A stretch of DNA of 37,150 nucleotides from Sporichthyaceae bacterium (GTDB taxonomy: Bacteria; Actinomycetota; Actinomycetes; Sporichthyales; Sporichthyaceae), in NCBI GenBank assembly GCA_036493475.1, contig DASXPS010000214.1, forward strand, positions 1 through 37,150, given 5' to 3'. Below the pieces are notes generated by a model. It had not been told where the DNA came from and made no database searches. It saw only the letters and a list, made by a program, of their open reading frames with translations. Positions 10,833-36,135 of this stretch are shown one piece after another. Position numbers and translations under genes: made by a program. The stretch's first letter is position 1. Each line of letters opens with the position of its first letter.

Positions 10833-10866
10833 ACGCCGGCAATGTGACCGCACCCCGGGATCAACA

Positions 10867-10915
10867 ATGAGTGACGTCAAGGGCCTGATGATAAATGTCA
10901 TCGCTTGACGGCTCA
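10867..10915. repeat. Nested inverted repeat upstream of the 147-residue secreted protein
   Basis: The outer arms ATGAGTGACGTCAAGG (10867-10882) and GCTTGACGGCTCAT (10902-10915) are imperfect inverted complements. Inside them GATGA-TAAATG-TCATC (10887-10902) is a second, perfect 5-bp inverted repeat. The region is markedly more A/T-rich than its surroundings. It may be an operator or cruciform in the divergent phoD/secreted-protein promoter region (10693-11003), which otherwise holds only the PHO box. Confidence 0.45.
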
Positions 10916-11003
10916 TATACCTCTGCTTTACCAATTTCACATCGCGGTTCTTATCCACGGGATCCGCGGAATTGCACAATTCGAGCAGAGAGCGAGAGAT
11001 CCC

Positions 11004-11447: not shown

Positions 11448-11462
11448 GCAACATCGGATGCC

Positions 11463-11499
11463 ACCCTGCCGGGTAGTCCTCTCTCCTATCCGGCAGGGT
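11463..11499 (+). terminator. Hairpin after the small secreted protein gene
   Basis: ACCCTGCCGG (11463-11472) and CCGGCAGGGT (11490-11499) make a perfect 10-bp stem with a 17-nt pyrimidine-rich loop, beginning 15 bases after the stop. Only a short T-poor tail (TCGTCCGTCC) follows, as is usual for actinobacterial terminators. Confidence 0.65.
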
Positions 11500-11529
11500 T
11501 CGTCCGTCCCGCCGCGGCCAGGCCCGGCA

Positions 11530-11551
11530 CGTCATCTGCTGTTAACCTGGG
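11530..11551 (+). promoter_or_regulatory. Possible PHO-box pair / -10 region before ppk
   Basis: CGTCATCTGCT and GTTAACCTGGG are adjacent 11-mers resembling PHO-box units (compare CGTCACC before phoD and the GTTCACC consensus). They end six bases before the ppk ATG. The second overlaps TAACCT (11543-11548), which could itself be a -10 for a near-leaderless transcript. Two weak units only, so this stays tentative. Confidence 0.3.
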
Positions 11552-11557
11552 CGCCCC

Positions 11558-13690
11558 ATGATCGAAGCAATGGACACCCCGGATTTCCCCGACGCCGGCA
11601 GCGAACCGGCGGATACCGTGCCCGCTTTGCCTGCCGACCGCTTCCTGGACCGTGAGGCCAGCTGGTTGGAGTTCAACCTGCGGGTGCTCGAACTGGCCGA
11701 GGACCCGGCGGTTCCCCTGCTCGAGCGGGCGCGCTTCCTCGCGATCTTCGCCGGGAACCTCGACGAGTTCTTCATGGTCCGGGTGGCCGGCCTCAAGCGC
11801 CGCATCGCGGCCGGTGTCGCGGTCACCTCGGCCAGCGGGCAGCAGCCGCGCGAGATTCTCGACCACATCCTCACCCACTCCGCGGCCGCTGCGCTGCGTG
11901 CCGCTCGTTGCTTCCGCGAGGAGCTGGCCCCGGCGCTGGCCAAGACCGAGATCGAGATCCTGCACTGGGAGGACCTGGAGCCGGCCGAGCAGGACCAACT
12001 GCGCGCGATGTTCCGAGAACGAGTGTTCCCGGTGCTCACTCCGCTGGCGGTGGACCCCGCCCACCCGTTCCCCTATATCTCCGGACTCTCGCTGAACCTG
12101 GCGGTCGTGGTGCGCAACCCGGCCACCGGCCGGGTCAACTTCGCCCGGGTCAAGGTGCCACCCTCGTTGCCACGGTTCCTCGCGGTCTCCGCGCTGCGCT
12201 TCGTCCCGCTCGAGGACGCCATCGCCGCCCACCTGCCCGAGTTGTTCGCGGGCATGGAGGTCGAGGCGCACCATGCCTTCCGGGTCACCCGCAACGCCGA
12301 CTTCGAGGTCGAGGAGGACGACACCGAGAACCTCCTGCAGGCCATCGAACGCGAACTGATGCGCCGCCGGTTCGGCCCACCGGTGCGTCTGGAGGTCGAG
12401 GAGAGCATCGATCCGGAGATTCGCGACCTGCTGGTCCGCGAACTCGGCGTGGCCGAGGCCGAGGTGTTCCCGCTGCCCGGCCCGCTGGACCTGGCCGGCC
12501 TGCACGCGATCGCCGACATCGACCGCTCCGAGCTGAAGTACCCGGCGTTCGTTCCGTCCACCCACCCCCACCTCGCGGAGGTGGAGACGTCCAAGGCGGC
12601 CGACGTGTTCGCCGCGGTGCGCGCCCGCGACGTGCTGCTGCACCACCCCTACGACTCGTTCTCCACCAGCGTGCAGGCGTTCATCGAGCAGGCCGCGGCG
12701 GACCCGGACGTGCTGGCCATCAAGCAGACGCTGTACCGAACCAGCGGTGATTCGCCGATCGTCGACGCACTCATCGACGCCGCCGAGGACGGCAAGCAGG
12801 TGGTCGCCCTGGTCGAGCTCAAGGCCCGGTTCGACGAGCGGGCCAACATCGCCTGGGCGCGCAAGCTGGAGCAGGTGGGCGCGCACGTCGCCTACGGCCA
12901 GGTCGGCCTGAAGACCCACTGCAAGCTGGCGCTGGTGGTGCGCCAGGAGGGCGATCGGCTGCGCCGCTACTGCCACATCGGCACCGGCAACTACAACCCG
13001 CGTACCGCCCGTACCTACGAGGACTTCGGCCTGCTCACCGCCGACCCGGTGGTGGCCGAGGACGTCACGCACCTGTTCAACGCGCTGTCCGGTTGGTCGC
13101 GCGGCACCTCCTACCGCAGGCTGCTGGTGGCGCCCAACTCGATGCGCACCGGGATCATCAGTCGCATTGAGGCCGAGGTGGCCCACCACCGCGCGGGCCG
13201 TCCGGCCGCGGTGTGGATCAAGGCCAACTCGGTGGTCGACGAGGCGATCATCGACGCGTTGTACCGGGCCTCGATCGCCGGTCTGCCGATCGACGTGTGG
13301 ACCCGCGGCATCTGCGCGATCCGACCCGGCGTGCCGGATTTGTCCAGCACGATCCGGGTACGCAGCGTGCTGGGTCGGTTCCTGGAGCACTCGCGGATCT
13401 ACGCGTTCGCCAACGGCGGTGACCCGGAGGTGTGGATCGGCAGCGCCGACCTGATGCACCGCAACCTGGATCGACGGGTGGAGGTACTGGTGCGGCTGAC
13501 CAGCCCGGACCACATCACCGAGCTGACCCAACTGACCGAAACCGCGTTCGCCGACCAGATCAGCGCCTGGCGGCTGGGCCCGACCGGGCAGTGGACCCGG
13601 CACAACGTCGACGACGAGGGTCGTCCGCTGACCGACCTGCAGGACTACTTGATCCGGGCGAAGTCGCGCCGCCGTGCCGAACCGGCGTGA
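11558..13690 (+). CDS. ppk: Polyphosphate kinase 1
   Basis: 710 residues from ATG 11558 (ATG 11570 possible), the usual PPK1 length. The N-terminal domain ([40 protein letters not shown]), the head ([20 protein letters not shown]) and two phospholipase-D-like catalytic domains are all recognisable. [11 protein letters not shown] carries the His equivalent to the autophosphorylated E. coli His435 (here His454), and [19 protein letters not shown] carries the second catalytic His (His473, the same 19-residue spacing). [13 protein letters not shown] and RVEVLVRL complete the active site. The enzyme reversibly makes polyphosphate from ATP. Its stop overlaps the start of the histidine phosphatase gene, so the two are coupled. 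It sits inside the phosphate island between phoD and pst. Confidence 0.97.
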
Positions 13691-14151
13691 CCCCGACAGT
13701 GATCGTGCTGCGGCACGGTCATGCGGTTTCCCGCGCTGACTGGTCCGGCCCGGACCGCGACCGACCGCTGCGTCCGAGCGGACGCCGGCAGGCCACCGCC
13801 CTGGTGGGCGTGGTGCGCGGTCACGACATCCGTCACGTGCTCAGCTCGCCGGCCACCCGGTGCGTGCAGACCATCGCCGAGGGGTTGACCGCCGCCGACG
13901 TGCACGCGGAATTGTTGCCGGGGCTCGACGAGGAGGCCACCGCGGCGCAGTTTGCGCACGCCGCCGCTGCCGTGGCCGGTCTGCTCACCGGGGAGTCCAA
14001 CGCGCTGGTGTGCAGCCATCGCCCGGTGCTGCCCGGGCTGTTCGCCGCGGTGGCCGGAGCGGGCGGACCACCGCCACCAACCGAACCACTGCGACCGGGG
14101 GAATTCATCGTGATCCGTGGGGCGGACGTGCTCAGCCGTGGTCGTAGTTGA
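13687..14151 (+). CDS. Histidine phosphatase (SixA / MutT1 C-terminal-domain type)
   Basis: 154 residues from GTG 13687, which overlaps the ppk TGA. It begins [20 protein letters not shown] with the RHG phosphohistidine loop. The phosphate-pocket motifs [30 protein letters not shown] and a C-terminal [14 protein letters not shown] with the second His follow. This is the histidine-phosphatase superfamily, closest in motif order to SixA and to the C-terminal half of mycobacterial MutT1, a Nudix-phosphatase fusion. From memory, a MutT1-type gene neighbours ppk in M. tuberculosis. Here no Nudix domain precedes it, since the upstream sequence is ppk itself. The substrate, perhaps a nucleotide, polyphosphate-related or protein phosphate, is unknown. 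Confidence 0.85.
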
Positions 14152-14211
14152 TCTCAATTCACCGTCTGCATCCCTCCCGGCAGCCCGATTGACGCGGCGT
14201 GTCCGACCGCG

Positions 14212-14255
14212 GTTCACCCCCCATTCACCTTGGGCCAGAAACGGGTTCATCCCTA
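14212..14255 (+). promoter_or_regulatory. PHO box upstream of pstSCAB
   Basis: Four in-phase 11-mers: GTTCACCCCCC (14212-14222), ATTCACCTTGG (14223-14233), a degenerate GCCAGAAACGG (14234-14244) and GTTCATCCCTA (14245-14255). Three of them match the GTTCACC PhoP unit at 6 or 7 of 7 positions. TAGCGT (14261-14266) is a plausible -10, so the last unit would replace the -35. The pstS start lies 56 bases downstream. Confidence 0.9.
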
Positions 14256-14310
14256 CGCCTTAGCGTCCGGCGGTAGTCAGCGTTACCCGCCCCCCGGAGA
14301 GGGACAACCA

Positions 14311-15474
14311 GTGAAGCTTCGCCCGCACGGACGCGTCGCCGTCACCCTCGGCGCCTGCCTGGCGTTGGCCGCCTGCGGCTCCGACAACAACACCGCGACC
14401 ACCAATCAGCAGCCGGTGAACGTTGCCCCGGTGAGTACCGTCCAGACCCCGTCCGCGGTTGCCACCACCGCATCGACGTCCTCGAACGGCATTTCCTGCT
14501 CCGGTTCCGGGGTGCTGAACGGTGAGGGTTCCACTGCCCAAGCCAACGCGATCAGCAGCTGGGTCTCCACCTATCAGGCCGCTTGCTCCGGCGTGACCAT
14601 CAACTACAACGGCACCGGTTCCGGTGCCGGCGTCAAGCAGTTCACCGCCAACCAGGTGGACTGGGCCGGTTCGGACTCCGCGCTCAAGCCCGAGGAGATC
14701 GACCCGGCCAAGGCCCGCTGCGGCGGCAACGACGTCTACGACATTCCGATGGCCGTCGGCCCGATCGCGGTGGCGTACAACCTGGCCGGCATCGACGGCC
14801 TGGTGCTGGACGGTCCGGCCATCGCCAAGATCTTCACTGGCAAGATCACCAAGTGGGACGACCAGGCCATCAAGGACCTGAACCCCTCGGTCAGCCTGCC
14901 GAGCAAGGACATCAAGGTCTTCTTCCGTTCCGATGAGTCGGGCACCACGGAGAACTTCGAGAAGTACATGGCCGCAGCCGGCGGCGGTAACTGGACCGCG
15001 GCGCCCGGCAAGGCCTTCGGCGGCGGCGTCGGTGAGGGCCAGACCAAGTCCGCCGGTGTGCAGCAGGCGGTCAAGGCCACCGACGGCGGCATCGCCTACA
15101 TCGAGTACTCCTACGCCAAGGACGCCAACCTCGGCGTGGCCAAGGTGAAGACCGGAACCGACGCGGTCGAGCTGACCGCAGAGAATGCGGGCAAGGCGCT
15201 GGCCGCGGCCACCCTGGTGGGCACCGGCAACGACCTGTCGCTGAAGCTGGACTACACGACCACGCAGCCGGGCGCGTACCCGATCGTGCTGGTGACCTAC
15301 GAGATCGTCTGCTCGAAGGGCCTGGACGCCACCAAGACCGGGATCCTCAAGTCCTTCCTGAGCTATCTGGCCTCCGACGCCGGCCAGCAGGCGATCTCCA
15401 GCATCGGCTACGGCACGCTGCCGGCGGACCTGGTCGCCAAGATCACCGCCTCCATCGCGGCCATCAGTGCCTAA
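14311..15474 (+). CDS. pstS: Phosphate-binding lipoprotein PstS
   Basis: 387 residues from GTG 14311, with GGAGAGGG eight bases upstream. A lipoprotein signal (VTLGACLALAAC) gives a lipobox ending at Cys in LAAC, so the mature protein is anchored to the membrane. A low-complexity Thr/Val/Ser linker follows, then the PstS fold: GSTAQANAISSWVSTYQAAC, INYNGTGSGAGVKQFTANQV, WAGSDSALKPEEI, IPMAVGPIAVAYNLAG, FFRSDESGTTENFEKYMAA, GGIAYIEYSYA. These loops bind phosphate (T/S, R and D residues). It is the first gene of pstSCAB and lies behind a strong PHO box. The short overlap with pstC indicates coupling. Confidence 0.97.
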   Translation: MKLRPHGRVAVTLGACLALAACGSDNNTATTNQQPVNVAPVSTVQTPSAVATTASTSSNGISCSGSGVLNGEGSTAQANAISSWVSTYQAACSGVTINYNGTGSGAGVKQFTANQVDWAGSDSALKPEEIDPAKARCGGNDVYDIPMAVGPIAVAYNLAGIDGLVLDGPAIAKIFTGKITKWDDQAIKDLNPSVSLPSKDIKVFFRSDESGTTENFEKYMAAAGGGNWTAAPGKAFGGGVGEGQTKSAGVQQAVKATDGGIAYIEYSYAKDANLGVAKVKTGTDAVELTAENAGKALAAATLVGTGNDLSLKLDYTTTQPGAYPIVLVTYEIVCSKGLDATKTGILKSFLSYLASDAGQQAISSIGYGTLPADLVAKITASIAAISA

Positions 15475-16456
15475 CGCCGCAACCCTCGAGTTCGCGGACC
15501 GGCCGGCGACCCCGGCCGGCCGCGGCATCGAGTGCGGCTCCCAGCGCGGCGACCGGATCTTCGCGGGTTTCGCCAAGGGGTCGGGCATCGCGATCATCGC
15601 CCTGGTGGCGATGGTCGCGGCCTTCCTCATCAAGACGGCGACGCCCTCGCTGTACCACGACCACGCGCGCTTCCTGTACTCACGGCAGTGGGATCTGACG
15701 CCGGGCAACCTGCACTTCGGGGTGGCCGGGATGTTCTACACCACGTGCTTGATCGCCGCGTTCGCCATGCTGTTGGCCGTGCCGATCGCGGTCGGCATCG
15801 CGTTGTTCCTGACCTTCTGGATGCCGCGCAAATACGCCGGGCCGCTGGCCGCCCTTATCGACCTGTTGGCCGCGGTGCCCTCGATCGTTTACGGCATCTG
15901 GGGCATCTATGTGCTGTCCCCGAAGCTGCAGCCATTCGCGGGCAAGCTGGAGGACGCACTGGGCTGGTGCCCGCTGTTCGCGCACACCGGGGTTTCCCGC
16001 GGCACGATCTTCACCGGCGGCGTGGTGCTGGGCATCATGATTCTGCCGATCATCACCGCGGTCAGCCGCGAGGTGTTCTCCCAGGTGCCCCAGCCGCAGG
16101 TGGAGGCCGCGCTGGGCTTGGGCGCCACCCGCTGGGAAATGGTCCGACTGGCCGTGCTGCCCTTCGGTCGCTCCGGCGTGGTGAGTGCCGCGATGCTCGG
16201 CCTGGGCCGCGCCCTCGGCGAGACCATCGCGATCACGCTGATCCTGTCCACCCCGCCGACCGGCGCGCCGTTCAAGGCCTCGCTGTTCAACGGCGGTGAG
16301 ACCTTCGCCTCGAAGATCGCGAACAACGCGCAGGAGTTCGACTCTCCGGCCAAGACCGGCGCCTTCATCGCCGCAGGCCTGATGTTGTTCATCCTCACCT
16401 TCGCGGTCAACGCCGTCGCGCGCATCATCGTGAACTCGGACAAAGGCAAGGCCTGA
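15467..16456 (+). CDS. pstC: Phosphate ABC transporter permease PstC
   Basis: 329 residues from GTG 15467, overlapping the end of pstS by eight bases. A cytosolic N-terminus (about 40 residues) is followed by six helices, for example IAIIALVAMVAAFLIKTATP and FYTTCLIAAFAMLLAVPIAV. The ABC permease coupling (EAA) loop is QPQVEAALGLGATRWEMVRL, then VLPFGRSGVVSAAMLGLGRA and LGETIAITLIL. With PstA it forms the channel for high-affinity phosphate import. Its stop and the pstA ATG share one base. Assignment follows from motifs and operon position. Confidence 0.96.
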   Translation: MPNAATLEFADRPATPAGRGIECGSQRGDRIFAGFAKGSGIAIIALVAMVAAFLIKTATPSLYHDHARFLYSRQWDLTPGNLHFGVAGMFYTTCLIAAFAMLLAVPIAVGIALFLTFWMPRKYAGPLAALIDLLAAVPSIVYGIWGIYVLSPKLQPFAGKLEDALGWCPLFAHTGVSRGTIFTGGVVLGIMILPIITAVSREVFSQVPQPQVEAALGLGATRWEMVRLAVLPFGRSGVVSAAMLGLGRALGETIAITLILSTPPTGAPFKASLFNGGETFASKIANNAQEFDSPAKTGAFIAAGLMLFILTFAVNAVARIIVNSDKGKA

Positions 16457-17385
16457 TGAGCACCGCATTTCTCGCCCATGACGTGAACGTCGCGGACCGC
16501 GCGGCCGGCCCGTTGTTGATCCCGGCGGCACGGGGGCGCCGGATTCGCAACCTGGCGGCCACCGCGTTCGTCACCCTGTCGTTCGTGGTCGCGGTGATCC
16601 CGCTGGTCTGGATCATCACCGAGGTGGTCGTCAAGGGCGCCCCTGATGTGTTCCACCCCAGCTGGTGGTCGCATTCGCAGAACGGCGTCACCGAGCGCCG
16701 CGAGGGCGGCGGCGCCTTCCACGCGATCACGGGTTCGGTGCTGCAGACCGCGGTCTGCGCGCTCATCGCGGTGCCGTTGGCCCTGATGGTGGCGATCTTC
16801 CTGGTCGAGTACGGCCGGGGCAGGTTGAACAGCGCGGTGGGCTTCATCGTGGACGTGCTCACCGGCATCCCGTCGATCGTGGCGGCGCTGTTCATCTACG
16901 CGCTGCTGATCACCACGTTCGGGTTCCAACGGCAGGGCTTCGCGGTCTCGCTGGCCCTGGTCCTGCTGATGATCCCGGTGGTGGTGCGTACCACCGAGGA
17001 GATGCTCAAGCTGGTGCCGGATGACCTGCGGGAGGCCTCCCTTGCGCTGGGCGTGCCGAAGTGGAAGACCACGGTGCGCATCGTCATCCCGACCGCGCTG
17101 CCGGGCATCATCACCGGCGTCATGCTCGGTATCGCCCGGGTCATCGGGGAAACCGCCCCGTTGCTGATCCTGGTCGGCTACTCGAAGACGATCAACAACA
17201 ACCTGTTCAGCGGGTTCCAGGGTTCGCTGCCCGGAATGATCCTCAACGAGGCCACCAACATCACGCTGAAGCCCGCAGAGGGCCGCGTCTGGGGTGCCGC
17301 ACTCACCCTCATCCTCATCGTGTTGACGCTCAACGTCGTCGCCCGACTGATTGCCCGTTCCACCTCCTCGCGCGCCAAGAAGTAG
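16456..17385 (+). CDS. pstA: Phosphate ABC transporter permease PstA
   Basis: 309 residues from ATG 16456. Helices include [20 protein letters not shown] and [20 protein letters not shown]. The PstA family stretch [20 protein letters not shown] and the coupling loop [20 protein letters not shown], then [20 protein letters not shown], are typical. It pairs with PstC in the membrane and lies ten bases before pstB. No odd features. Confidence 0.96.
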
Positions 17386-17395
17386 GGAGCCAACC

Positions 17396-18172
17396 ATGGC
17401 CAAGCGCATCGACCTCTCGTCGCTGAGCGTCTTCTACGGCAAGTTCCGCGCGGTGGACGACGTCAACATGAACATCGAGCCGAAGTCGGTGACCGCGTTC
17501 ATCGGCCCGTCCGGCTGCGGCAAGTCCACCCTGCTGCGCTCGCTGAACCGCATGCACGAGTTGGCCGGGCAGGGGCGCATCGAGGGCAAGGTGCTGCTCG
17601 ACGGCACCGACCTGTACGCCAGCAACGTGGACCCGGTCAGCGTGCGCCGCACCATCGGCATGGTGTTCCAGCGGCCGAACCCGTTCCCCACGATGTCGAT
17701 CTTCGACAACGTGGCCTCGGGTCTGCGGCTGAACGGCATACGCGACCGCAAGCGCGTCGCCGAGACCGTGGAGCGTTCGCTGCAGAGCGCGGGCCTGTGG
17801 AAAGAGGTCAACAATCGACTGAGCAAGCCCGCTTCCGGCTTGTCCGGCGGTCAGCAGCAGCGGCTGTGCATTGCCCGCGCGATCGCGGTGGAACCGCAGG
17901 TGCTGCTGATGGACGAGCCCTGCTCCGCGCTGGACCCGATCTCCACGCTGGCCATCGAGGACCTGATCCACGACCTTAAGCAGCGCTTCACCATCGTCAT
18001 CGTCACGCACAACATGCAGCAGGCCGCGCGCGTCTCGGACACCACCGCGTTCTTCAACATCGCGGGCACCGGTAAGCCCGGCAAGCTCATCGAGATCGAC
18101 GCCACCTCGCGGATCTTCTCCACCCCGTCGGAGAAAGCCACCGAAGATTACATTTCGGGACGTTTCGGCTGA
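17396..18172 (+). CDS. pstB: Phosphate ABC transporter ATPase PstB
   Basis: 258 residues from ATG 17396 (GGGAG at 17386-17390); the in-frame extension to 17351 lies inside pstA. Walker A is GPSGCGKS (residues 37-44), the Q-loop lies in [20 protein letters not shown], the signature is [16 protein letters not shown], Walker B is [15 protein letters not shown] and the switch His is in [15 protein letters not shown]. It powers phosphate uptake through PstCA. No phoU gene follows, although PhoU often completes this operon; the window's PhoU-like protein is the DUF47 gene 3.8 kb further on. Confidence 0.97.
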
Positions 18173-22166: not shown

Positions 22167-22188
22167 TTTCACCCCAAATTAACCGGTG
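22167..22188 (+). promoter_or_regulatory. PHO-box-like repeats upstream of secreted protein A
   Basis: TTTCACCCCAA (22167-22177) and ATTAACCGGTG (22178-22188) are in-phase 11-mers resembling GTTCACC-N4, pointing to the gene at 22306. The region from 22130 to 22200 is A/T-rich, as a promoter would be. Match quality is modest (6 and 5 of 7 core bases), so this is a candidate only. Confidence 0.35.
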
Positions 22189-22305
22189 AATTCTGAAACG
22201 TGCGACCCCCTCGTTGCGATGCACGAATCAAGGGGGCAAATCCGCTTGAATGGGCGAAAACGCCCTCGCCGGAAATTCAAACTGACCGAAATCAGGAGCA
22301 CACCC

Positions 22306-23388
22306 GTGTCCAACCGCATGCAGCGCAGCCCCGCCCGGGCGGCCGCCCTCGCCGGTTCGATGGTGCTGATGGGCGCCATGACCGCGCCCGCCCACGCCGC
22401 CGATGCAGGCACCAGTCCCAAGTCCGGCTTCGACTGGACCAATGCCAGCTACATCCTCACCGTCCGGTCCGGCGGTATCGAGTTCTACGACCAGATTCCG
22501 CGTGATCTGCAGCAGGACGTCGGCTACAGCTTTGTGGAGCTGACGCACGACATCGGCCAGGATCAGGGCCAGTGCGAGTCCTGGGGCGCCGGCTACTGGC
22601 TGGGCCAGGAGGTCGAGGAGGGCGTGCTCGGCGCCGGCGCCGCACCGCCCGATGCCGGCGATGTCTCCGGTGGGTACCGCAACCCGACCACCTCGCGGCA
22701 GGTCCGCCCGAACCTGTCGGCCGGACAGAGCCAGTCCGACCGGCACCCGGCCGTGCACAACTACTTCCCGCCGGGTAACGACGTCTACGCGTTCAACCCC
22801 GAGGGTCCCGGCTACAAGTGGACCGCCACCTGCGACAACGACGTCAAGGGTCAGAGCCAGGGCGACGTGACGAACGCCGGCGGCGTGCAGGCGGCCGGCA
22901 GCACCTCGCAGGCCGTGCTGGACAAGACCACCGGTGTGTACACCGCCACGAGCCGCTCCTACGTCTTCGGCATCGAGGGCGCCACCGGCTTCGACAGCGC
23001 GTCGTCGTTCATGCAGATCACCAACCGTCCGAACTCCAACGCGACGATCACCTACCGGATGAGCTACTTCAACTCCGGTGGCCTGGACAAATCCGGCACC
23101 AACGGGGTCACCTTCGGCGGCACCGACGTCCCGGTGCAGGAGTTCGCCGACCAGTTCAACAACAACGCGAAGACCTTCTCGTCATCACTGTCCGCGGTCG
23201 GCCCGGCGGGGGCGGGCACGCTGCAGCCCGAGGTGGGCGTGTCCACCGACGGCGGCCGTTACTCGATCACCATCTCCGCCGGTCACGGCCACCTCGGCTT
23301 CAATGCTCGGCAGGGCGGCTTGGGCGAGGACCAGGGCGCACGGTTCGGCTCGATCACCTTCCAGGGGGTCTACGGCCAGGCCAGTTGA
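22306..23388 (+). CDS. Secreted protein A of an unrecognised tandem-duplicated family
   Basis: 360 residues from GTG 22306, with AGGAG eight bases upstream; the longer in-frame ORF from 22186 lacks an RBS. A Sec signal peptide ends near residue 31 (AALAGSMVLMGAMTAPAHA). The mature protein is acidic and rich in Gly, Asn and Gln. Blocks shared with its neighbour include GGIEFYDQIPRDLQQDVGYS, FVELTHDIGQDQGQCESWGA, YWLGQEVEEGVLGAGAAPPD, NPTTSRQVRPNLSAGQSQSD, HNYFPPGNDVYAFNPEGPGY and ISAGHGHLGFNARQGG. Two Cys (GQCESWG and ATCDNDV) are conserved in both copies and may form a disulfide. No catalytic motif or known domain was recognised. It lies between a PHO-box region and its paralog; a phosphate link is possible but unproven. 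Confidence 0.85.
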   Translation: MSNRMQRSPARAAALAGSMVLMGAMTAPAHAADAGTSPKSGFDWTNASYILTVRSGGIEFYDQIPRDLQQDVGYSFVELTHDIGQDQGQCESWGAGYWLGQEVEEGVLGAGAAPPDAGDVSGGYRNPTTSRQVRPNLSAGQSQSDRHPAVHNYFPPGNDVYAFNPEGPGYKWTATCDNDVKGQSQGDVTNAGGVQAAGSTSQAVLDKTTGVYTATSRSYVFGIEGATGFDSASSFMQITNRPNSNATITYRMSYFNSGGLDKSGTNGVTFGGTDVPVQEFADQFNNNAKTFSSSLSAVGPAGAGTLQPEVGVSTDGGRYSITISAGHGHLGFNARQGGLGEDQGARFGSITFQGVYGQAS

Positions 23389-23669
23389 ATTCCCACCGGC
23401 GCAGTTCGCGACACGCCCGATTTGGGACAGTGACCTGTGCCGGTTTCGACCGTTGTGTATTAGGGAGCGATTGGAATGTCCCGATTCGATCGGTCCTGCA
23501 ACACAACGTGATGATCTGCCCGTCCGTTAGTTACACTCCGTAGTGTTAGCAGGCTCATCTGGACGCGCCGCCGGAACGGTGCAACGTTCGGACAGATCCG
23601 ACCGATAGGGCTAACAGGTTCATACCCCGCCACACCCGTACCGGGATCCCCCACGCAGGAGCCATCACA

Positions 23670-24914
23670 GTGTCGAACAGCATCCAGACCAGAGTCCTCC
23701 CCTGGGCCAGCGCAGCCGGAGCCCTGGTACTCGTCGCGGGCACCATCGCCGCTCAGGCGGGCGCGGGAGCGGCCTCGGTTCCGTCCGCCGATTCGACCAC
23801 CCCCGCGGCCAACTCGCACGGTGTGCCGCTCTCCGTTGCCAAGGCGATGAACACCCAGCTCGCCGGGTTGGTCAAGCACCAGCAGAGCGCCCCCACCGCG
23901 GTCACCAAGGCGGCCCCCGCGGCCCCGGTCGCCACCACCGCGGACAAGAAGTCCGCGAAGTACGACTGGGAGAACTCCTCCTACATCTTCGACATCCGCT
24001 CCGCGGGCATCGAGTACTACGACAAGATCCCGCGCGACCTGCAGCAGGACCAGGGCTTCAGCTTCGTCGAGTTGACCCACGACCTCGGCCAGGACCAGGG
24101 CCGATGTGAGGCCTGGGGCGCCGCCTACTGGCTCGGCCAGGAGGTCGAGGAGGGCGTGCTCGGCTTCGGGGCCGCGCCGCCGGACGCCGGCAACGTCTCC
24201 GGTGGCTACCACAACCCGACCACCTCGCGTCAGGTCCGCCCGAACCTGTCGGCCGGACAGAGCGAATCCGACCGGCACCCCGCGGTCGTGAACTACTTCC
24301 CGCCGGGTAACGACCTGTACGCGATGAACCCCGACGGCCCCGGCTACAAGTGGACCGCCGCCTGCGATAACGACGTCAAGGGCCAGGGTCAGGGCGACGA
24401 CCTCAACATCGCGGGCTTCCAGTCGATCGGCAGCACGGCGGAGGCCTCGCTCGACAAGGTCACCGGTGTCTACGTCGGCACCAGCCGTGCATACTTCTTC
24501 GGGCTCGAGGGCGCGAGCGGCTTCGACAGCGGCTCGTCGTTCATGCAGATCACGAACCACCCGAACTCCGACGCCACCATCACCTACCGGATGAGCTACT
24601 TCAACTCCGGTGACAACAACAGCAAGAACGGCATCACGTTCGGCGGCACTGACGTGCCGGTCGAGGACTTCGCCAAGCAGTTCAACGACCAGGCCCAGTC
24701 CGGCTCCACCGCGATGGCCCCGGTGGGACCGGCGGGTGCGGCCACCCTCGCGCCCGAGGTCGGTGTGTCCACCGATGGTGACCGCTACTCGATCACCATC
24801 TCGGCCGGTCATGGCCACCTCGGCTTCGCCGCCCGTGATGGCGGCCTGGGCCAGGACCAGGGCGCGCGGATCGGGTCGGTCACCTTCTCGGGTGTCTACG
24901 GCAACGGCAACTGA
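23670..24914 (+). CDS. Secreted protein B, tandem paralog of protein A
   Basis: 414 residues from GTG 23670, with AGGAG about ten bases upstream. A signal peptide (WASAAGALVLVAGTIAAQAG) is followed by about 60 extra Ala/Thr/Pro-rich residues (PVATTADKKSAKYDWENSSY at the join) that protein A lacks. The remaining roughly 330 residues align with A end to end with few gaps: GIEYYDKIPRDLQQDQGFSF, ELTHDLGQDQGRCEAWGAAY, PTTSRQVRPNLSAGQSESDR, MQITNHPNSDATITYRMSYF. Both Cys are kept. The pair arose by tandem duplication, and the 281-base gap (23389-23669) holds no gene, so B probably has its own promoter. A UUCG-loop terminator follows. Function is unknown; the linker could tether the domain in the cell wall. 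Confidence 0.85.
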   Translation: MSNSIQTRVLPWASAAGALVLVAGTIAAQAGAGAASVPSADSTTPAANSHGVPLSVAKAMNTQLAGLVKHQQSAPTAVTKAAPAAPVATTADKKSAKYDWENSSYIFDIRSAGIEYYDKIPRDLQQDQGFSFVELTHDLGQDQGRCEAWGAAYWLGQEVEEGVLGFGAAPPDAGNVSGGYHNPTTSRQVRPNLSAGQSESDRHPAVVNYFPPGNDLYAMNPDGPGYKWTAACDNDVKGQGQGDDLNIAGFQSIGSTAEASLDKVTGVYVGTSRAYFFGLEGASGFDSGSSFMQITNHPNSDATITYRMSYFNSGDNNSKNGITFGGTDVPVEDFAKQFNDQAQSGSTAMAPVGPAGAATLAPEVGVSTDGDRYSITISAGHGHLGFAARDGGLGQDQGARIGSVTFSGVYGNGN

Positions 24915-24959: not shown

Positions 24960-25055
24960 TCGTCGTTGACGGCGGAGGCACTCCGCGGCGGAACCAGCCG
25001 TCGCGTTCTGACGACTCGTGGGGAGGCGGGCCGCTCCGGCCGACCTTCGGCGCAA

Positions 25056-25076
25056 GATACCACCAGGGGGTATCAT
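25056..25076 (+). promoter_or_regulatory. CsoR operator overlapping the csoR -10
   Basis: GATACCACCAGGGGGTATC (25056-25074) is a pseudo-palindrome with GATACC/GGTATC ends around a C/G-rich centre, the form of CsoR-type copper operators. TATCAT (25071-25076) is one mismatch from TATAAT and lies seven bases before ATG 25084, so repressor binding would cover the -10. Copper-loaded CsoR would release it and express csoR-copZ-copA. Confidence 0.7.
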
Positions 25077-25083
25077 GGAGTCC

Positions 25084-25461
25084 ATGACGCCGACGGTTGA
25101 GCCGCACGACGCGCTGCCGCAGACGCAGGTGCGTCCCAGCGACGTGGCGCCGAGGGCGATCGAGCCCCCCGGCGAGCACAGCCGGGGCTACACCGCGGAC
25201 AAGGAGGTCTACCTCAAGCGGCTGCGCCGGATCGAGGGCCAGATCCGCGGTCTGCAACGCATGGTGACCGAGGACGCCTACTGCATCGACGTGCTGACCC
25301 AGGTGTCCGCGGCCACCAAGGCACTGCAGTCGGTCGCGCTCGGCCTGCTCGAGGAGCATCTCGGTCACTGCGTCGGCCATGCCGTGGACCACGGCGAGGC
25401 CGCCATGGAGGCCAAGGTCAAGGAAGCCGCCGAAGCCATCGCCCGCTTGGTCCGCTCGTAA
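25084..25461 (+). CDS. csoR: Copper-sensing repressor CsoR
   Basis: 125 residues from ATG 25084, chosen because a -10 (TATCAT) lies seven bases upstream, implying a leaderless message; ATG 25075 is inside the -10. After a disordered 36-residue N-terminus the CsoR four-helix fold follows: VYLKRLRRIEGQIRGLQRMV, DAYCIDVLTQVSAATKALQS, LLEEHLGHCVGH. The Cu(I) ligands Cys67, His92 and Cys96 form the C-H-C set that distinguishes CsoR from RcnR/FrmR relatives. It is the first gene of csoR-copZ-copA and is probably autoregulated through the overlapping operator. Confidence 0.93.
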   Translation: MTPTVEPHDALPQTQVRPSDVAPRAIEPPGEHSRGYTADKEVYLKRLRRIEGQIRGLQRMVTEDAYCIDVLTQVSAATKALQSVALGLLEEHLGHCVGHAVDHGEAAMEAKVKEAAEAIARLVRS

Positions 25462-25492
25462 CCCCACCAAAGCACCGAGGAGAGTCGAACCC

Positions 25493-25690
25493 GTGAGCAC
25501 CGTGTATTCGGTTCCCGGCATGACCTGCCAGCACTGCGTCGCCGCGATCACCAGCGAGGTCGGTCAGGTGCCCGGTGTGCAATCGGTGGTCGTCGACCTG
25601 GAGGCCAAGACCGTCACCGTGGACGCACCCTCGGTGGACGACGCCGCGCTGCGCGCCGCGATCGACGAAGCCGGATACGCGGTGGCCTGA
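25493..25690 (+). CDS. copZ: CopZ-type copper chaperone (HMA domain)
   Basis: 65 residues from GTG 25493, with GAGGAGAG nine bases upstream. The single heavy-metal-associated domain begins VYSVPGMTCQHCVAAITSEV, with the GMTCxxC copper loop at residues 9-15. It continues VPGVQSVVVDLEAKTVTVDA and ends DEAGYAVA, the beta-alpha-beta-beta-alpha-beta ferredoxin-like fold. It carries Cu(I) in the cytosol to the ATPase encoded three bases downstream. Length and motifs are standard for CopZ. Confidence 0.93.
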   Translation: MSTVYSVPGMTCQHCVAAITSEVGQVPGVQSVVVDLEAKTVTVDAPSVDDAALRAAIDEAGYAVA

Positions 25691-25693
25691 GCC

Positions 25694-27982
25694 ATGTTCC
25701 AGCGGGCGAGCGCTCCCCCGGAATCCGGCCGAACGGCACCGGGCTCCGGGACGCAGGTCGAACTCGCCGTCGGCGGGATGACCTGCGCGGCGTGCGCCGC
25801 GCGCATCGAGAAGAAGCTGAATCGACTCGACGGAGTCACCGCGGCGGTCAATTACGCCAACCGGACCGCGTCCGTGGACTACGACCCGGCGCTGGTCAGC
25901 CCGGACGAGCTGATCTTCACCGTGGCCCGCATTGGTTACTCCGCGGCGCTGCCGGCCGAGGACACCACCAAGGCGTTGGACGCCGAGGAGGCTCGCACCC
26001 AGCGCGATCTGCTCGTCCGGCTCCTGCTGGCCGTGCCGTTGAGCATCGCGGTGGTCGTTCTCGGCATGCGCGACGGGTTCTCCGTACAACACCTGGGCCA
26101 TGGCATGCACGACACGCACGGCACCGCTGGGACCTTGCGCTGGGTGTCCCTGTGGCTGACCACGCCCGTGGTGGCGTTCTGCGGCTTCCCGTTCCACCGC
26201 GCCGCGTTGCGGAATCTTCGGCACCGCGCCGCGACCATGGACACGTTGGTCTCCATGGGCACGGTGGCCGCATACCTGTGGTCGGTGTGGGCGGTGATCA
26301 GCGGCCGCAGCGAGGTGTACTTCGAGGCGGCGGCCGCGGTCACCACGTTTTTGCTGTTCGGCCGGTGGGCCGAGGCGCGCTCGCGGCGACGGGCCGGTGC
26401 CGCCATGCGCGAGTTGTTCGCGCTGGGCGCCAAGGAAGTCACCCTGCTCAACGAGAACGGCACCGAATGTCAGGTGGACGTCAGCCGGCTACGCGAGGGC
26501 GACCTGTTCGTGGTGCGGCCGGGCGAGAAGGTCGCGACCGACGGAGTCATCGAGCGTGGTGTGTCCGCGCTGGACCTGTCGATGATCACCGGTGAGAGCG
26601 TGCCGGTGGAACGCGGGCCGGGCGAGGAGGTGATCGGTGCCTCGATCAACGCCAACGGCCGGCTGGTGGTGCGGGCAACCCGGATCGGCTCGGCCACCGC
26701 GCTGGCCCAGATCGCCCGTCTGGTCGCCGAAGCACAGTCCGGCAAGGCCGACGTGCAACGGCTGGCGGACCGGGTGGCGGGCATCTTCGTGCCGGTCGTG
26801 CTCGGCCTGGCGCTGATCACCCTGACCGCGTGGCTGGCCATCACCGGCAACGTCGATGACGCATTCACCGCCACCGTTGCGGTGCTGATCATCGCCTGCC
26901 CGTGCGCGCTCGGCCTGGCCACGCCGACCGCGTTGATGGTGGGCACCGGGCGCGGCGCCCAACTGGGTCTGTTGATCCGCGGCCCCGAGGTGCTGGAGCG
27001 CACCCAGCGGCTGGACGTCATCGTGCTGGACAAGACCGGCACGGTGACCACCGGGAAAATGAGCGTGCATCAGGTGACCGTGCCGCCCGGCGCCGACCTC
27101 GACGAGGCGCTGCGCCTGGTCGGCGCCGCCGAGCACGCCTCCGAGCATCCCATCGCGCAGGCAATCGCCGGCTACGCGGCGGCCCGCGCGGAGTTGCCGG
27201 ACGCCGGCAAGTTCCGCGCGGTGTCCGGACTGGGCGTGATCGCCGAGGTCGAGGGACGCACCGTGGTGGTGGGCCGGCCGGGACTGCTCACCGAGCAGGG
27301 CCTGCACATCGACGCCGACCTACAGCGCGCGCTCGACGAGGCGGCGGCCGTCGGGCACACCGCGGTACTGGGCGGCTGGGACGGTGCGGCCCGCGTCGCG
27401 GTGGCGGTCGGCGACACCGTCAAGGAAAACGCGGCCGAGGCGATCGCAAGCATGCGCTCGCTCGGGCTCACCCCGTGGCTGGTCACCGGGGACAGCCGGG
27501 CGGCGGCACTGGCCACCGCGCGCATCGTCGGCATCGACGCCGAACACGTGGTCGCCGAGGTGCTGCCGCAGGACAAGGTCGACGTGGTGCGTCGGTTGCG
27601 TGCGGAGGGCCGGGCGGCCCGGCTGCGCGGGCGCAAGCACACCGTGGCCATGGTGGGCGACGGGGTCAACGACGCGGCAGCGCTGGCCGAGGCCGACCTC
27701 GGGTTGGCCATGGGCACCGGCACCGACGTGGCCATCCAGGCCGGTGACCTGACCTTGGTGCGCGGCGATCTGTCCGCGGCGCCGGACGCTATCCGGCTGG
27801 CCCGGCGCACGTTGGGCACCATCAAGATGAACCTGTTCTGGGCCTTCGCCTACAACGTCGCGGCGATCCCGTTGGCCGCGAGCGGCCGGCTGAATCCGAT
27901 GGTCGCGGGCGCCGCGATGGCCATGTCCAGCTTCTTCGTGGTGAGCAACAGCCTGCGGCTGCGCCGCTTCACCCCGTCCTGA
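25694..27982 (+). CDS. copA: Copper-exporting P1B-type ATPase
   Basis: 762 residues from ATG 25694. One N-terminal HMA domain (GMTCAAC, residues 28-34) precedes eight membrane helices. The actuator motif TGES is at 299-302, the membrane metal site is CPC at 402-404 (LIIACPCALGLATP), the phosphorylation motif DKTGT is at 446-450 (Asp446), HP is at 485-486 and GDGVND at 655-660. These features define a Cu(I)-exporting P1B-1 ATPase. A His-rich stretch (HLGHGMHDTHG, about 133-143) in the first extracytoplasmic loop may help release copper. It converges with the sortase gene, with three bases between the stops. Confidence 0.96.
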   Translation: MFQRASAPPESGRTAPGSGTQVELAVGGMTCAACAARIEKKLNRLDGVTAAVNYANRTASVDYDPALVSPDELIFTVARIGYSAALPAEDTTKALDAEEARTQRDLLVRLLLAVPLSIAVVVLGMRDGFSVQHLGHGMHDTHGTAGTLRWVSLWLTTPVVAFCGFPFHRAALRNLRHRAATMDTLVSMGTVAAYLWSVWAVISGRSEVYFEAAAAVTTFLLFGRWAEARSRRRAGAAMRELFALGAKEVTLLNENGTECQVDVSRLREGDLFVVRPGEKVATDGVIERGVSALDLSMITGESVPVERGPGEEVIGASINANGRLVVRATRIGSATALAQIARLVAEAQSGKADVQRLADRVAGIFVPVVLGLALITLTAWLAITGNVDDAFTATVAVLIIACPCALGLATPTALMVGTGRGAQLGLLIRGPEVLERTQRLDVIVLDKTGTVTTGKMSVHQVTVPPGADLDEALRLVGAAEHASEHPIAQAIAGYAAARAELPDAGKFRAVSGLGVIAEVEGRTVVVGRPGLLTEQGLHIDADLQRALDEAAAVGHTAVLGGWDGAARVAVAVGDTVKENAAEAIASMRSLGLTPWLVTGDSRAAALATARIVGIDAEHVVAEVLPQDKVDVVRRLRAEGRAARLRGRKHTVAMVGDGVNDAAALAEADLGLAMGTGTDVAIQAGDLTLVRGDLSAAPDAIRLARRTLGTIKMNLFWAFAYNVAAIPLAASGRLNPMVAGAAMAMSSFFVVSNSLRLRRFTPS

Positions 27983-27985
27983 ACG

Positions 27986-28675
27986 TCAGTCGACGCCGGG
28001 CCCGGGCGCGGGCACCGCGTACACCACCAGGTTGTACAGGTAGCGGTGCGTAGCGCGGTCGAACACACCGCCGCAGGTGATGAGGGCCAACCTGGGCGTG
28101 GCCTGTTGGGCGAACACACCGGTGTCGGCGAGATTGGCCGAGGGGTACTCCCCCACCTCGGTCACCGCCCATTCGGTGTGGGTGCCGGCCGCGTCGGTGA
28201 GCGCGACGGTGTCTCCCGGTTGCAGCCGGCGCAGGTTCACGAAGAAGCCCTCGCCGTAGCGCTCGGAGTCGACGTGGCCGTCGATAACCACCGTGCCGGT
28301 CCCGGCCGCGGGCGCGGCACTGCCGGCCCACCAGCCCAACCGGTTCGGGTCGTCCGGAATGGCCAGGTCACCCTCTGGCCAGACGCCGACCGGATCGATC
28401 GATGCGGTGATGCCGTCGCCGAACGGCAGCGCAAGTGCGGTCGGTGCGGGACCGGCCAGATTCACCGGTGCGAGCACCGGCGCCGCGGAGCCGCTGGACG
28501 AGGCGATGTCGCGCATAGCCACCAGCCGCGGCTGGGGGAAGGCCAGCGGCAGGGACAGCACGCCGGCCGTGCCGACGCTGAGCAGCCCGGCCGTCAGCAA
28601 CCCGTGTACCCACCCGGGCCGGCGTCGGCCGGCGGGGTGGGTCTCGGGGGTCATCGCCGGAGGCGAATCGATCAA
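27986..28675 (-). CDS. Class F-like sortase
   Basis: 229 residues from TTG 28675, which overlaps the ycnI stop as TTGA; ATG 28654 is an alternative. A membrane anchor lies at about 22-45 (WVHGLLTAGLLSVGTAGVLS). The sortase domain holds the catalytic His in GTVVIDGHVDSERYGEG, the Cys in LALITCGGVFD and the Arg in ATHRYLYNLVVYAVP. Spacing and the TCGG-FD-R-Y-N pattern fit the actinobacterial class F (sometimes E) sortases. These transpeptidases cut a C-terminal sorting signal on secreted proteins and join them to the cell wall or to other proteins. The coupling with ycnI suggests YcnI or another copper-related surface protein as substrate; this is inference. Confidence 0.85.
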   Translation of the reverse strand: MIDSPPAMTPETHPAGRRRPGWVHGLLTAGLLSVGTAGVLSLPLAFPQPRLVAMRDIASSSGSAAPVLAPVNLAGPAPTALALPFGDGITASIDPVGVWPEGDLAIPDDPNRLGWWAGSAAPAAGTGTVVIDGHVDSERYGEGFFVNLRRLQPGDTVALTDAAGTHTEWAVTEVGEYPSANLADTGVFAQQATPRLALITCGGVFDRATHRYLYNLVVYAVPAPGPGVD

Positions 28676-29496
28676 TGCCGGATCAGTCGGCGCGCACCGT
28701 AGGCAGCGGCTGCTAGACCGGCCAGCACGAACGGCAGCGGCGCTACCGGGATGCTGCGGTCGTTCGCGGCCTGGCCGCCGGTGCCCGCCTCGACGCTCGT
28801 CGGCGAGCTGGTCGAGGACGAGCTGCTCGAGGACGACGAGGTCGCCGCGGGTGTGGCGGTGGCGGCCGTCATGGTCCCCATCTTGTTCATCTCGGACATC
28901 GATCCGCTCGAACTCGAACCTGACGAGGTCGACGACGCGCTGTACTGATCGTGGTCACTGTCGTTGTCGACCTTGTTCGGATTGCTCAGGTCGAGGGTGG
29001 GGGCCGGGTGTGCGGGCTCCGGGGCGCCGGGCGCGGCCTGCTCGATCCAGCGCACCACGTTGCCGTCGCTGTAGGTCTGCAGCGCCTTGAAGACGACCGT
29101 GCCGCTGCTCGGCAGCTTGCCGACCCGGACCGGGAATTCCTCGTCGTTGTCCCCGGTGATCTGGCCGCCGGAGAAGACGATCGAGGTGCTGGTGACATCC
29201 GCCTTCCACCCGGACGGGGCCGTAGCGCTGACGTCGCTCAGCGGGGTGTCCGTGGGCAGGTCGATCTCGATCTTGGTGGTGCTGGCGTTGGCCTCTTCGT
29301 TGGGCACCTGGAAGATCAGGGTGCCACTGCCGCCGGGTTTGGCGTCCGCACTGTGCACGGTGACATGCGCGGCGGCCCCACCGGCGGCGGCGAGTACCAG
29401 CGCCGCAGCGCCCGACACGGCCACGGCGGCCCGGGTCGGCCAACGACGGTTGACGGAAATCGAACGGGCTTGGGTGCAACGGGGGGTGTTTCGCAT
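28672..29496 (-). CDS. ycnI: YcnI-family extracytoplasmic copper-binding protein (DUF1775)
   Basis: 274 residues from ATG 29496, with GAGGAAG about seven bases upstream. The signal peptide ends VLAAAGGAAA, so cleavage exposes His as residue 1 of the mature chain (HVTVHSADAKPGGSG), the Cu(II) ligand known in YcnI proteins. Family strands follow (TKIEIDLPTDTPLSDVSATA, WKADVTSTSIVFSGGQITGD) with the conserved Trp in NVVRWIEQAAPG. A long Ser/Thr linker with a Met-rich patch (SMSEMNKMGTMTAA) leads to a C-terminal helix (LPFVLAGLAAAAYGARRLIR) and basic tail. It binds copper outside the cell. The overlap with the sortase and convergence with copA mark one copper module. Confidence 0.92.
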   Translation of the reverse strand: MRNTPRCTQARSISVNRRWPTRAAVAVSGAAALVLAAAGGAAAHVTVHSADAKPGGSGTLIFQVPNEEANASTTKIEIDLPTDTPLSDVSATAPSGWKADVTSTSIVFSGGQITGDNDEEFPVRVGKLPSSGTVVFKALQTYSDGNVVRWIEQAAPGAPEPAHPAPTLDLSNPNKVDNDSDHDQYSASSTSSGSSSSGSMSEMNKMGTMTAATATPAATSSSSSSSSSTSSPTSVEAGTGGQAANDRSIPVAPLPFVLAGLAAAAYGARRLIRH

Positions 29497-33374: not shown

Positions 33375-34232
33375 ATGAAGATCGGTTCTCTACCGCTGCC
33401 GCATCTCTCGCTGCCCTGGCCGAACACCGAAACCCACCCGGCACTGTGCGCCGACGGGTTCACCCGGCCCAGCAGCGCCCGCGCGCTGCTCGACGAGCGG
33501 CGCGCGGTGCGCGAGATCGCCGCGCTGGTGCGCGACCCGGTGTTCCGCACCGGGGCGCCCGCAGGTGCCGGCCGCCCGGTCATGCTGATCCCGGGTTTCG
33601 GCACCGGCGACATGTCGCTGACCCTGCTGTCCCGCTGGTTGGCCCGCAACGGGTGGGCCACCGTGCCCTCCCGGGTGCACCTGAACATCGGTTGCGCCCG
33701 CCAGACCATGGAACACCTGGTGCGCCGCACCGAACTGGTGGCGCTGAGCCACGGCGCCCCGGTGACCCTGATCGGCCACAGCCTCGGCGGCGTCTTCGCC
33801 AAGGCCGTGGCCGTACGCCGGCCCGAGGTGGTGGCCGCGGTGGTGACGCTGGGCAGCCCGCTGCTGGCACCCACCGCCGCGCACCGCGTGCTGCTCGCCG
33901 ACGTGGCCATGCTGACCGCGCTGAGCAGGTTCGGCGTCGGACGGCTGGGTGCGCGGCGCATCGGCACCGGTCGACCCGGCAGCAACTCCCTGATGGCCGC
34001 CGACTGTGTGCGCGGCGAATGCGCCCACGCCGCCTGGCAGGAACTCCATGCCCCGTTCCCCGGCCGGGTCGGGTTCACCTCGGTGTACTCGCGCAGCGAC
34101 GGACTGATCGATTGGCACGCCTGCCTGGACCCGGCGGCCGAGGCGGTCGAGGTGGAGTCCAGCCACTGCGGCATGGCGGTGAATGCGGCGGTCTATCGGG
34201 CGCTCGCCGAGCGCCTCGAGGCCGCCGCATGA
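33375..34232 (+). CDS. Lipase-like alpha/beta-hydrolase
   Basis: 285 residues from ATG 33375, with AGGAG nine bases upstream; the ORF from 33333 adds 14 residues without support. The oxyanion segment is PVMLIPGFGTGDMSLTLLSR, the nucleophile elbow VTLIGHSLGGVFAKAVAVRR and then VVTLGSPLLAPTA. The Asp is in VYSRSDGLIDWHACLD and the His in SSHCGMAVNAAVY. This GHSLGG-then-GSP arrangement fits bacterial triacylglycerol-lipase or PGAP1-like hydrolases. No signal peptide is evident. It may act on the lipids made by the neighbouring WS/DGAT enzyme; that is context only. Confidence 0.85.
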   Translation: MKIGSLPLPHLSLPWPNTETHPALCADGFTRPSSARALLDERRAVREIAALVRDPVFRTGAPAGAGRPVMLIPGFGTGDMSLTLLSRWLARNGWATVPSRVHLNIGCARQTMEHLVRRTELVALSHGAPVTLIGHSLGGVFAKAVAVRRPEVVAAVVTLGSPLLAPTAAHRVLLADVAMLTALSRFGVGRLGARRIGTGRPGSNSLMAADCVRGECAHAAWQELHAPFPGRVGFTSVYSRSDGLIDWHACLDPAAEAVEVESSHCGMAVNAAVYRALAERLEAAA

Positions 34233-34335
34233 ATCGGGGACTTTTACACAGATGCCACCGTGCGGACCTCACCAATGCGATAGGCATAACCCCTGCACCA
34301 CATCGGCGCAGGTTCCAGCCGCCCGGGGGGTCCGC

Positions 34336-36135
34336 GTGAGAACTCCGTCCCGTCTGTTGGTCGGTGCGACCGCCATGGCGGGCCTGGCTGCCGGGGTCAC
34401 GGCCACGGCGCCGGGCACTGCTCTGGCCGCGGCCGATGCGACCGGTGCCGACCCAGCCATCGTGCGCGACGCCCTGGCCGCGCTGCGGGACAACGCCGCT
34501 CGGTTGGGCTTCGACACCGACCGCAAGGGCGTGCAGGGCCTGGGCAAGCAGTACCGGGTCAGGGTCACCGACGTGCTGCGCGACGCCAACGGGGCCGAGC
34601 ACGTCCGCATGGACCGCACCTTCGCTGGTCTGCCGGTACTCGGCGGCGACTTCGTGGTGCACCGCGCACCGGACGGCCGGTGGGTCGGCGCCAGCGCCAC
34701 CCTGCACCGCTCCCTGGACGCGCTCGGCCTGTCCCCGGTCATCGGCCCGGCGGCGGCCCTGCTGGACGCCGCGGTCGACACCGCCACCGCCCTCGCGGCG
34801 CCCCTCGGTGCCCCGGCTCTGGTGATCGACGCCCGGCACGGCGCGCCCGCGTTGGCCTGGGATGTGCAGACCGTCGGTACCCAACCGGACGGCACCCCCA
34901 GCCATCTGCACAGCTACGTCGACGCGGTGACCGGCGCGGTGCGCTTCCGGGACGAGACCGTGCAGACCCTGCGCGAGACCGGTGCGCCGAACAACGACGG
35001 GGCGGCTACCAACAGCACGGCGGACCATGTCCCGAGCGAGTTCGTGCGCAGCGCGGGGGCCGCCACCGCGAACGGCAAGGGTCGCTCCCTCTACGCCGGC
35101 GAGGTCCCGCTGCGCACCTCGTCCCTGAACAACGTGTTCGCGCTCAAGGACCTCACCCGCGGCGGCGGATACATCGGGGATGCCGAGGACACTGCGGACA
35201 ACTGCCTGTCGGTGGGCCTGCCGATCTGCACGTCGAACGCGCCGAGCAAGTTGTTCACCGACGACGACAACAGCTGGGGCGACGGCACCCAGGCCAGCCG
35301 GCAGACGGTCGCGGTGGACGCCCAATACGGCAGCAACACGACGTGGGATTTCTACAAGAACGTGTTCAAGCGGTCCGGGGTGGCCAACGACGGCGTCGGT
35401 GTTTACAGCCGCGTGCACTACGGCCGCCACTACGCGAACGCGTTCTGGAGCGACGACTGTCAGTGCATGACCTACGGCGACGGTGACGGCAAGCTGATCG
35501 GCCCGTTGGTTTCCCTTGACATCACCGGGCACGAGATCACCCACGGCGTCACCTCACGCACCGCGAAGCTCGGTAATGACGGGGAGTCAGGTGGTCTGAA
35601 CGAGGCCAACAGCGACATCTTCGGCACGATGATCGAGTTCTACGCGCACAACGCCAAGGACGTCGGCGACTACCTGATCGGCGAGACCTCCTTCGTCCAC
35701 GCCAAGGACAAGGATGGTAAGTACAACGCGATCCGCTATATGGACGAGCCCAGCCGGGACAAGTCCTCCCCGGATTGTTGGAACAACGCACTCGGCCAAC
35801 TCGACGTCCACCTGTCGGCGGGCGTCGGCGACCACTTCTTCTACCTGCTCTCCGAGGGCAGCGGGAAGAAGACCATCAATGGCATCCCCTACGACAGCTC
35901 GACCTGTGACGGTAAGGCCGTCAAGGGCATCGGCCGGGACGTGGCCGCCAAGATCTGGTACCAGGCATTGACCCGGTACTTCACCTCGGGCACCACCTAC
36001 GCCACCGCGCGCGGGGCAGTGGCCAGGGCCGCCACGGACCTGTTCGGGGCGAACTCCAAGGAGTTGGCCGCGGTGAACGCGGCCTGGGACGCGGTGAACG
36101 TGCACGTGGACGACGAGCAGTCCCCGCTGTTCTAG
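34336..36135 (+). CDS. Secreted M4 (thermolysin-like) metalloprotease precursor
   Basis: 599 residues from GTG 34336, six or seven bases after a GGGGGG purine tract. A signal peptide (LLVGATAMAGLAAGVTATAP) is followed by an inhibitory FTP/PepSY propeptide to about residue 220 (KQYRVRVTDVLRDANGAEHV, SHLHSYVDAVTGAVRFRDET). The catalytic domain has the zinc motif HEITH at 399-403 (DITGHEITHGVTSRT), the third ligand Glu in GGLNEANSDIFGTM, and the C-terminal active-site His region in GVGDHFFYLLSEG. It is exported and matures by removal of the propeptide, then degrades extracellular protein. Its stop shares CTAG with that of the convergent coxG-like gene. Confidence 0.95.
   Translation: MRTPSRLLVGATAMAGLAAGVTATAPGTALAAADATGADPAIVRDALAALRDNAARLGFDTDRKGVQGLGKQYRVRVTDVLRDANGAEHVRMDRTFAGLPVLGGDFVVHRAPDGRWVGASATLHRSLDALGLSPVIGPAAALLDAAVDTATALAAPLGAPALVIDARHGAPALAWDVQTVGTQPDGTPSHLHSYVDAVTGAVRFRDETVQTLRETGAPNNDGAATNSTADHVPSEFVRSAGAATANGKGRSLYAGEVPLRTSSLNNVFALKDLTRGGGYIGDAEDTADNCLSVGLPICTSNAPSKLFTDDDNSWGDGTQASRQTVAVDAQYGSNTTWDFYKNVFKRSGVANDGVGVYSRVHYGRHYANAFWSDDCQCMTYGDGDGKLIGPLVSLDITGHEITHGVTSRTAKLGNDGESGGLNEANSDIFGTMIEFYAHNAKDVGDYLIGETSFVHAKDKDGKYNAIRYMDEPSRDKSSPDCWNNALGQLDVHLSAGVGDHFFYLLSEGSGKKTINGIPYDSSTCDGKAVKGIGRDVAAKIWYQALTRYFTSGTTYATARGAVARAATDLFGANSKELAAVNAAWDAVNVHVDDEQSPLF

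Follow-up and report, generated by a model that had tools for sequence, protein, structure and literature searches.

The window, a stretch of 37,150 nucleotides from a member of the Sporichthyaceae, contains two tandem genes for secreted proteins on the forward strand. Paralog A (22306..23388) encodes 360 residues and paralog B (23670..24914) encodes 414. Each opens with a GTG codon, at 22306 and 23670, respectively, which is preceded a few bases upstream by AGGAG, and third-position GC is high in both reading frames. Both open frames are genuine genes. Both proteins begin with Met-Ser-Asn, carry a Sec-type signal peptide recognizable by inspection, and share a β-rich domain of ~320 residues. 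BLASTP aligned A and B with 242 identities out of 316 (77% over 316 residues, E=0), and the long identical blocks quoted in the original prediction, which had described two exported proteins of this kind, were found. The two cysteines that it had called conserved occupy equivalent positions (90 and 176 in A, 146 and 232 in B) and are kept in nine of nine close family members; this conservation does not extend to the two distant paralogs described below. The additional linker that it had ascribed to B is an insertion of roughly 55 residues between the signal peptide and the domain. In the sister species (genome G001), both complete tandem copies also carry the B-type insertion; hence A, which is devoid of it, is the exception. 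The pairwise dN/dS of A and B is ~0.38, which indicates that the duplicates are under purifying selection with both copies kept, in agreement with the selected function proposed for them.

Divergent from A, on the reverse strand, lie a DUF47/PhoU-like gene (PF01865; 21388..22008) and the gene of a Pit low-affinity phosphate transporter (PF01384; 20395..21387), a conserved neighbor of the family. The pstSCAB genes and ppk are located beyond them. csoR and copA come after B, and the tandem copies sit between Pit and csoR-copA. Specifically, positions 8998-18172 hold genes for a PhoD-like alkaline phosphatase, polyphosphate kinase, and PstS, PstC, PstA, and PstB, with a PHO box before pstS, and positions 25018-29496, adjoining B, encode a CsoR repressor, an HMA chaperone, a CopA ATPase, a sortase, and a YcnI-like DUF1775 protein. 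A thermolysin-like M4 secreted metalloprotease is encoded at 34183-36135. In the three genomes of a second genus, Sporichthya (G002, G003, and G004), the family has a single copy, again divergent from DUF47-Pit and with pst close by. Two copies occupy this place on one contig of G001, and another contig stops inside a third copy, which is followed by csoR-copA. From these layouts on two contigs, which are not joined, we infer that G001 probably has three copies in this block. A lipoprotein encoded near one of the G001 copies turned out to be an ordinary solute-binding protein. The same placement across two genera makes the phosphate adjacency, already pointed out in the original prediction, a conserved fact and not a coincidence of one genome.

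Whole-genome searches located the family in all five Sporichthyaceae genomes examined, with three members in the window's genome (G000), five in G001 of the same genus, and one each in G002-G004. None of the other genomes sampled from the class (n=394) and the phylum (n=396) has a member; in the genomes sampled, the family is restricted to Sporichthyaceae and lineage-specific. When genome contigs were scanned, B alone as query gave no match and the family alignment retrieved one Sporichthya MAG contig; tblastn of the family against plasmid sequences gave no match. Pfam returned nothing for A, B, and four relatives, with no match for A and B at E up to 10. NCBIfam gave no match for A and B up to E=10, the one chance match elsewhere in the tests having an E of 0.29. 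No PDB sequence matched A or B with E<0.1, and the best PHROGs match (E=0.023 over 52 residues) is at chance level. Weak matches outside the family, namely the amidohydrolase L010 and L055-L061, scored no better than E=0.053 with the profile of the family and were discarded. The A/B family is therefore, as had been claimed, without a recognized relative in Pfam, NCBIfam, PHROGs, and PDB sequences, and it is real and previously undescribed. G000 and G001 each have one distant single-copy paralog (L003, 1402-2445, and L014, 1480-2535 on the minus strand), which shares 22-30% identity with the rest, has a different cysteine pattern, CLLGCEPPC, and is not preceded by the promoter element described below. 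These two paralogs form a branch of their own within the family. In the tree, tandem copies cluster by genome, A with B and the three G001 copies together, which means that tandem amplification or gene conversion took place independently in each species.

The AlphaFold models of B (pTM 0.61) and the Sporichthya domain (pTM 0.78) both have a long antiparallel β-meander and one long helix near domain residue 232-247. Foldseek searches against the PDB and viral models found nothing below E=0.001, the best matches having an E of at least 0.007 and a TM of about 0.2. With a second aligner, VIA-align, the best Z was 6.7 and 5.2 for the two models, mostly against porins, and Z up to 6.7 falls, per the aligner's notes, in a range common without a true match. 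In these searches the modeled domain had no significant match to a recognized fold, and no fold is assigned to it from them; a weak fold match is no evidence for a new fold.

The adjacency to DUF47-Pit and pst, kept in two genera, and the presence of PhoD-like phosphatase and polyphosphate kinase genes in the same window would be in line with A and B being phosphate-starvation exoproteins of the PhoP regulon, which bind or scavenge phosphate ligands and serve the Pst/Pit importers. PHO boxes were scored as upstream 11-bp direct repeats of the GTTCACC type with 300 shuffles as control. The box upstream of pstS (GTTCACC-CCCC-ATTCACC; 14212..14229, forward strand), used as comparison for the family promoters, is clear: no shuffle out of 300 was as good in the window, G002, and G003, and two Sporichthya genomes have a perfect box before pstS. 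Before the family, in contrast, 5 of 300 shuffles were as good as the best repeat for A, and 11 of 300 for the first G001 copy. The distance from these weak repeats to the -35 box downstream of them is 9-19 nt. The one at A (22167..22184, forward strand; TTTCACC-N4-ATTAACC, 11 of 14 positions identical to GTTCACC-N4-GTTCACC) could serve either A or the divergent DUF47-Pit operon, and both repeats, although they speak for PhoP control, may belong to the latter. Repeats before B and the three Sporichthya family copies are not significant in the shuffle test. The original prediction had also raised Ca or phosphate binding, for which no motif was found in the proteins, nor did Pfam and NCBIfam reveal a phosphatase or binding-protein domain. 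The shared promoter described next indicates a PKS and not pho genes. PhoP-controlled scavenging is a rather unlikely role for the two proteins. A phosphate function of A and B is possible.

All eight family copies with readable upstream DNA are preceded, 79-120 nt from the start codon, by the element TG[AC]AACG-N15-[CG]CGAT. In A, it reads TGAAACG-N15-GCGAT (22194..22220, forward strand) and lies 112 nt before the start codon; in B, it reads TGCAACG-N15-CCGAT(A) (23580..23606, forward strand), at a distance of 90 nt. Across the 24.6 Mb of the five genomes, the exact version TGAAACG-N15-CCGATA has five occurrences, every one of them before a family member. TGMAACG-N15-SCGAT, the form fitted to all eight family copies, has 17 matches in the five genomes versus five for the reversed pattern. 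Eight of the 17 are the family and three precede an orthologous PKS gene; the others, in unrelated genes and for the most part either within coding sequence or confined to one genome, were treated as background. The relaxed form TGAAAC-N17-CGATW, which was picked after the three PKS matches had been seen, has 10 matches versus none for the reversed control. Half of the 10 precede family members, and the other half precede the orthologous PKS, once in each genome. The lone G000 match is the PKS, because the elements of A and B are slight variants. Only family sequences went into deriving the element, and the PKS matches took no part in its first form, so that the PKS match in three genomes, and then in the other two, is a largely independent result. 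The element, shared by these two loci exclusively, is strong sequence-level evidence for a link between the family and the PKS. The original prediction, drawn from one stretch of sequence, was right about the family and its adjacency, but the strongest clue, the element shared with the PKS, was not visible there.

The PKS gene preceded by the element is the first of an operon, which encodes NMO-KS-AT-ACP-KR and KS-AT-DH-PPTase proteins, an ACP, an alpha/beta hydrolase, a glycosyltransferase, and methyltransferases. Judged by its domains, this make-up is that of a lipid synthase of the PUFA-synthase/heterocyst-glycolipid type. The orthologous operons preceded by TGAAAC-N17-CGATT are L081 (G000:C55), L082 (G002), L083 (G001:C37), L084 (G004:C20), and L078 (G003:C10), and the -10 part of the element before them is [GA]CGATT. 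Of 394 class genomes, 53 have homologs of the N-terminal part of the PKS, and the element was found in none of 25 of the best homologs from other families. The window's genus also has another PKS of this type, with 55-58% identity in the N-terminal part (G000:C172:34590-35900 and G001:C87:67005-68312); a search with the strict pattern gave no match in its vicinity in either genome.

We then considered what kind of element this is. An AAC-containing -35 box, a -10 box with CGxx, a spacer of about 16-17 nt, and a position upstream of a gene, the hallmarks of ECF promoters used here, are found in the sequences of the eight family copies and the five PKS operons, and the element is probably an ECF-sigma-type promoter. 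The nearest described actinobacterial case among those checked is sigma-D of C. glutamicum, whose promoters have GTAAC[A/G] at -35 and GAT at -10 and whose regulon builds the mycomembrane (PMC6338062). No sigma gene adjoins the family or the PKS locus in the stretches read, and the strict element search of five genomes found none that carries the element. The window itself encodes an ECF sigma factor of the SigE-fam_strep type (TIGR02983; 1107-2317), ~20 kb from A and B and without the element upstream; the gene overlapping its downstream end may encode its anti-sigma factor. ECF factors frequently autoregulate. The search having found no autoregulated sigma gene, the element might instead be the site of a transcription factor, either repressor or activator, since two boxes at fixed spacing could equally be bound by a regulator; the two-locus regulon would then be real but not ECF-driven. 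The AAC and CGAT boxes, the 17-nt spacing, and the distance of 79-230 nt to the start codons nonetheless fit an ECF promoter, and we consider a transcription-factor site quite unlikely.

The -10 half of the element, GCCGATA, also resembles GCCGATAA of the flagellar consensus (-35 TAAA, -10 GCCGATAA; PMC8325347), and two FliA/WhiG-type sigma genes score above the family cut-off in each of the genomes searched. A flagellar/WhiG promoter of the sigma-28 family would place A and B in motile-spore or sporulation biology. However, the -35 half is TG[AC]AAC in all copies, which is ECF-like and not TAAA, the PKS copies depart from the flagellar -10 box by reading [GA]CGATT, and flagellin was not found in G000 and G001, though family and element are present in the two genomes. 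This promoter type was rejected on account of the -35 box and the flagellin absence in two carriers; a sigma-28 origin of the element is highly improbable, and flagellar roles of A and B are unlikely. Flagellin genes are present in the second genus (G002-G004, with a fragmentary match only in G004), and none was found in the window's genus.

Taking together a family that is under selection, lineage-specific, and equipped with export signals, its conserved position at the phosphate genes, and an element shared with the lipid-type PKS only, the most economical explanation is an ECF envelope regulon with proteins acting at the surface. We tentatively favor a lineage-specific, probably ECF-controlled envelope regulon of two loci, in which the A/B family would form or organize a surface layer together with the PKS lipid; A and B probably help build the cell surface. 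In this regulon, an envelope or developmental signal would activate one ECF sigma factor, which would drive two loci only, the A/B family genes and the PKS operon. The PKS operon would make a long-chain lipid, which is probably glycosylated. The family proteins would be exported via Sec, fold as disulfide-containing β-meander domains, and assemble with or organize the PKS lipid as an outer surface layer, an assembly suggested by genomic context, as no fold match is significant. Tandem amplification beside the phosphate importers would raise dosage and yield variants with and without the N-terminal spacer.

A lipid role leaves the conserved phosphate neighborhood unexplained. Lipid and phosphate observations would be joined if A and B formed a channel through a glycolipid outer layer, as a functional analog of mycobacterial Msp porins, which are required for phosphate uptake in M. 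smegmatis (Wolschendorf 2007, cited in PMC13098993). The promoter in common with the lipid PKS and the phosphate-importer neighborhood would both be accounted for, and outer-membrane porins make up most of the top fold matches. These matches nevertheless have chance-level scores (Foldseek E of at least 0.007, TM about 0.2; Z at most 6.7), and such a channel has very little probability in our estimation. Also very unlikely is a new two-locus ECF envelope system in which the PKS and the β-domain family build a non-mycolate outer layer and the protein passes phosphate. Returning to the envelope regulon, an orphan protein family becomes testable via a control element at about ten places in five genomes, and the element ties it to a class of lipid-type PKSs that is widespread but whose function is obscure. 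If true, the regulon would provide a new actinobacterial surface-layer component and a pointer to the role of the PKS product, and would raise the question of what connects a layer of this kind with phosphate import.

Several known systems resemble parts of this arrangement. The SigD/RsdA system of C. glutamicum also has AAC[A/G] at -35 and GAT at -10 and controls lipid-envelope genes together with secreted proteins (PMC6338062), but the -35 box here is TG[AC]AACG instead of GTAAC[A/G], the loci are apparently only two, and the secreted proteins are not mycolyltransferases. The chaplins and rodlins of Streptomyces, under sigma-BldN, are ECF-controlled secreted surface proteins of filamentous actinobacteria (title of Bibb 2012, in the reference list of PMC6767563); A and B differ from them in having no family match and a much larger domain. 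Msp porins are likewise secreted β proteins, and their loss impairs phosphate uptake. A and B give weak porin-like fold matches, but have no sequence or significant fold match to Msp porins. Finally, actinobacterial PKSs of the PUFA/heterocyst-glycolipid type have the NMO, KS, AT, ACP, KR, DH, and PPTase domains found here. Those from elsewhere are without the element (25 compared), and only the Sporichthyaceae copies carry it.
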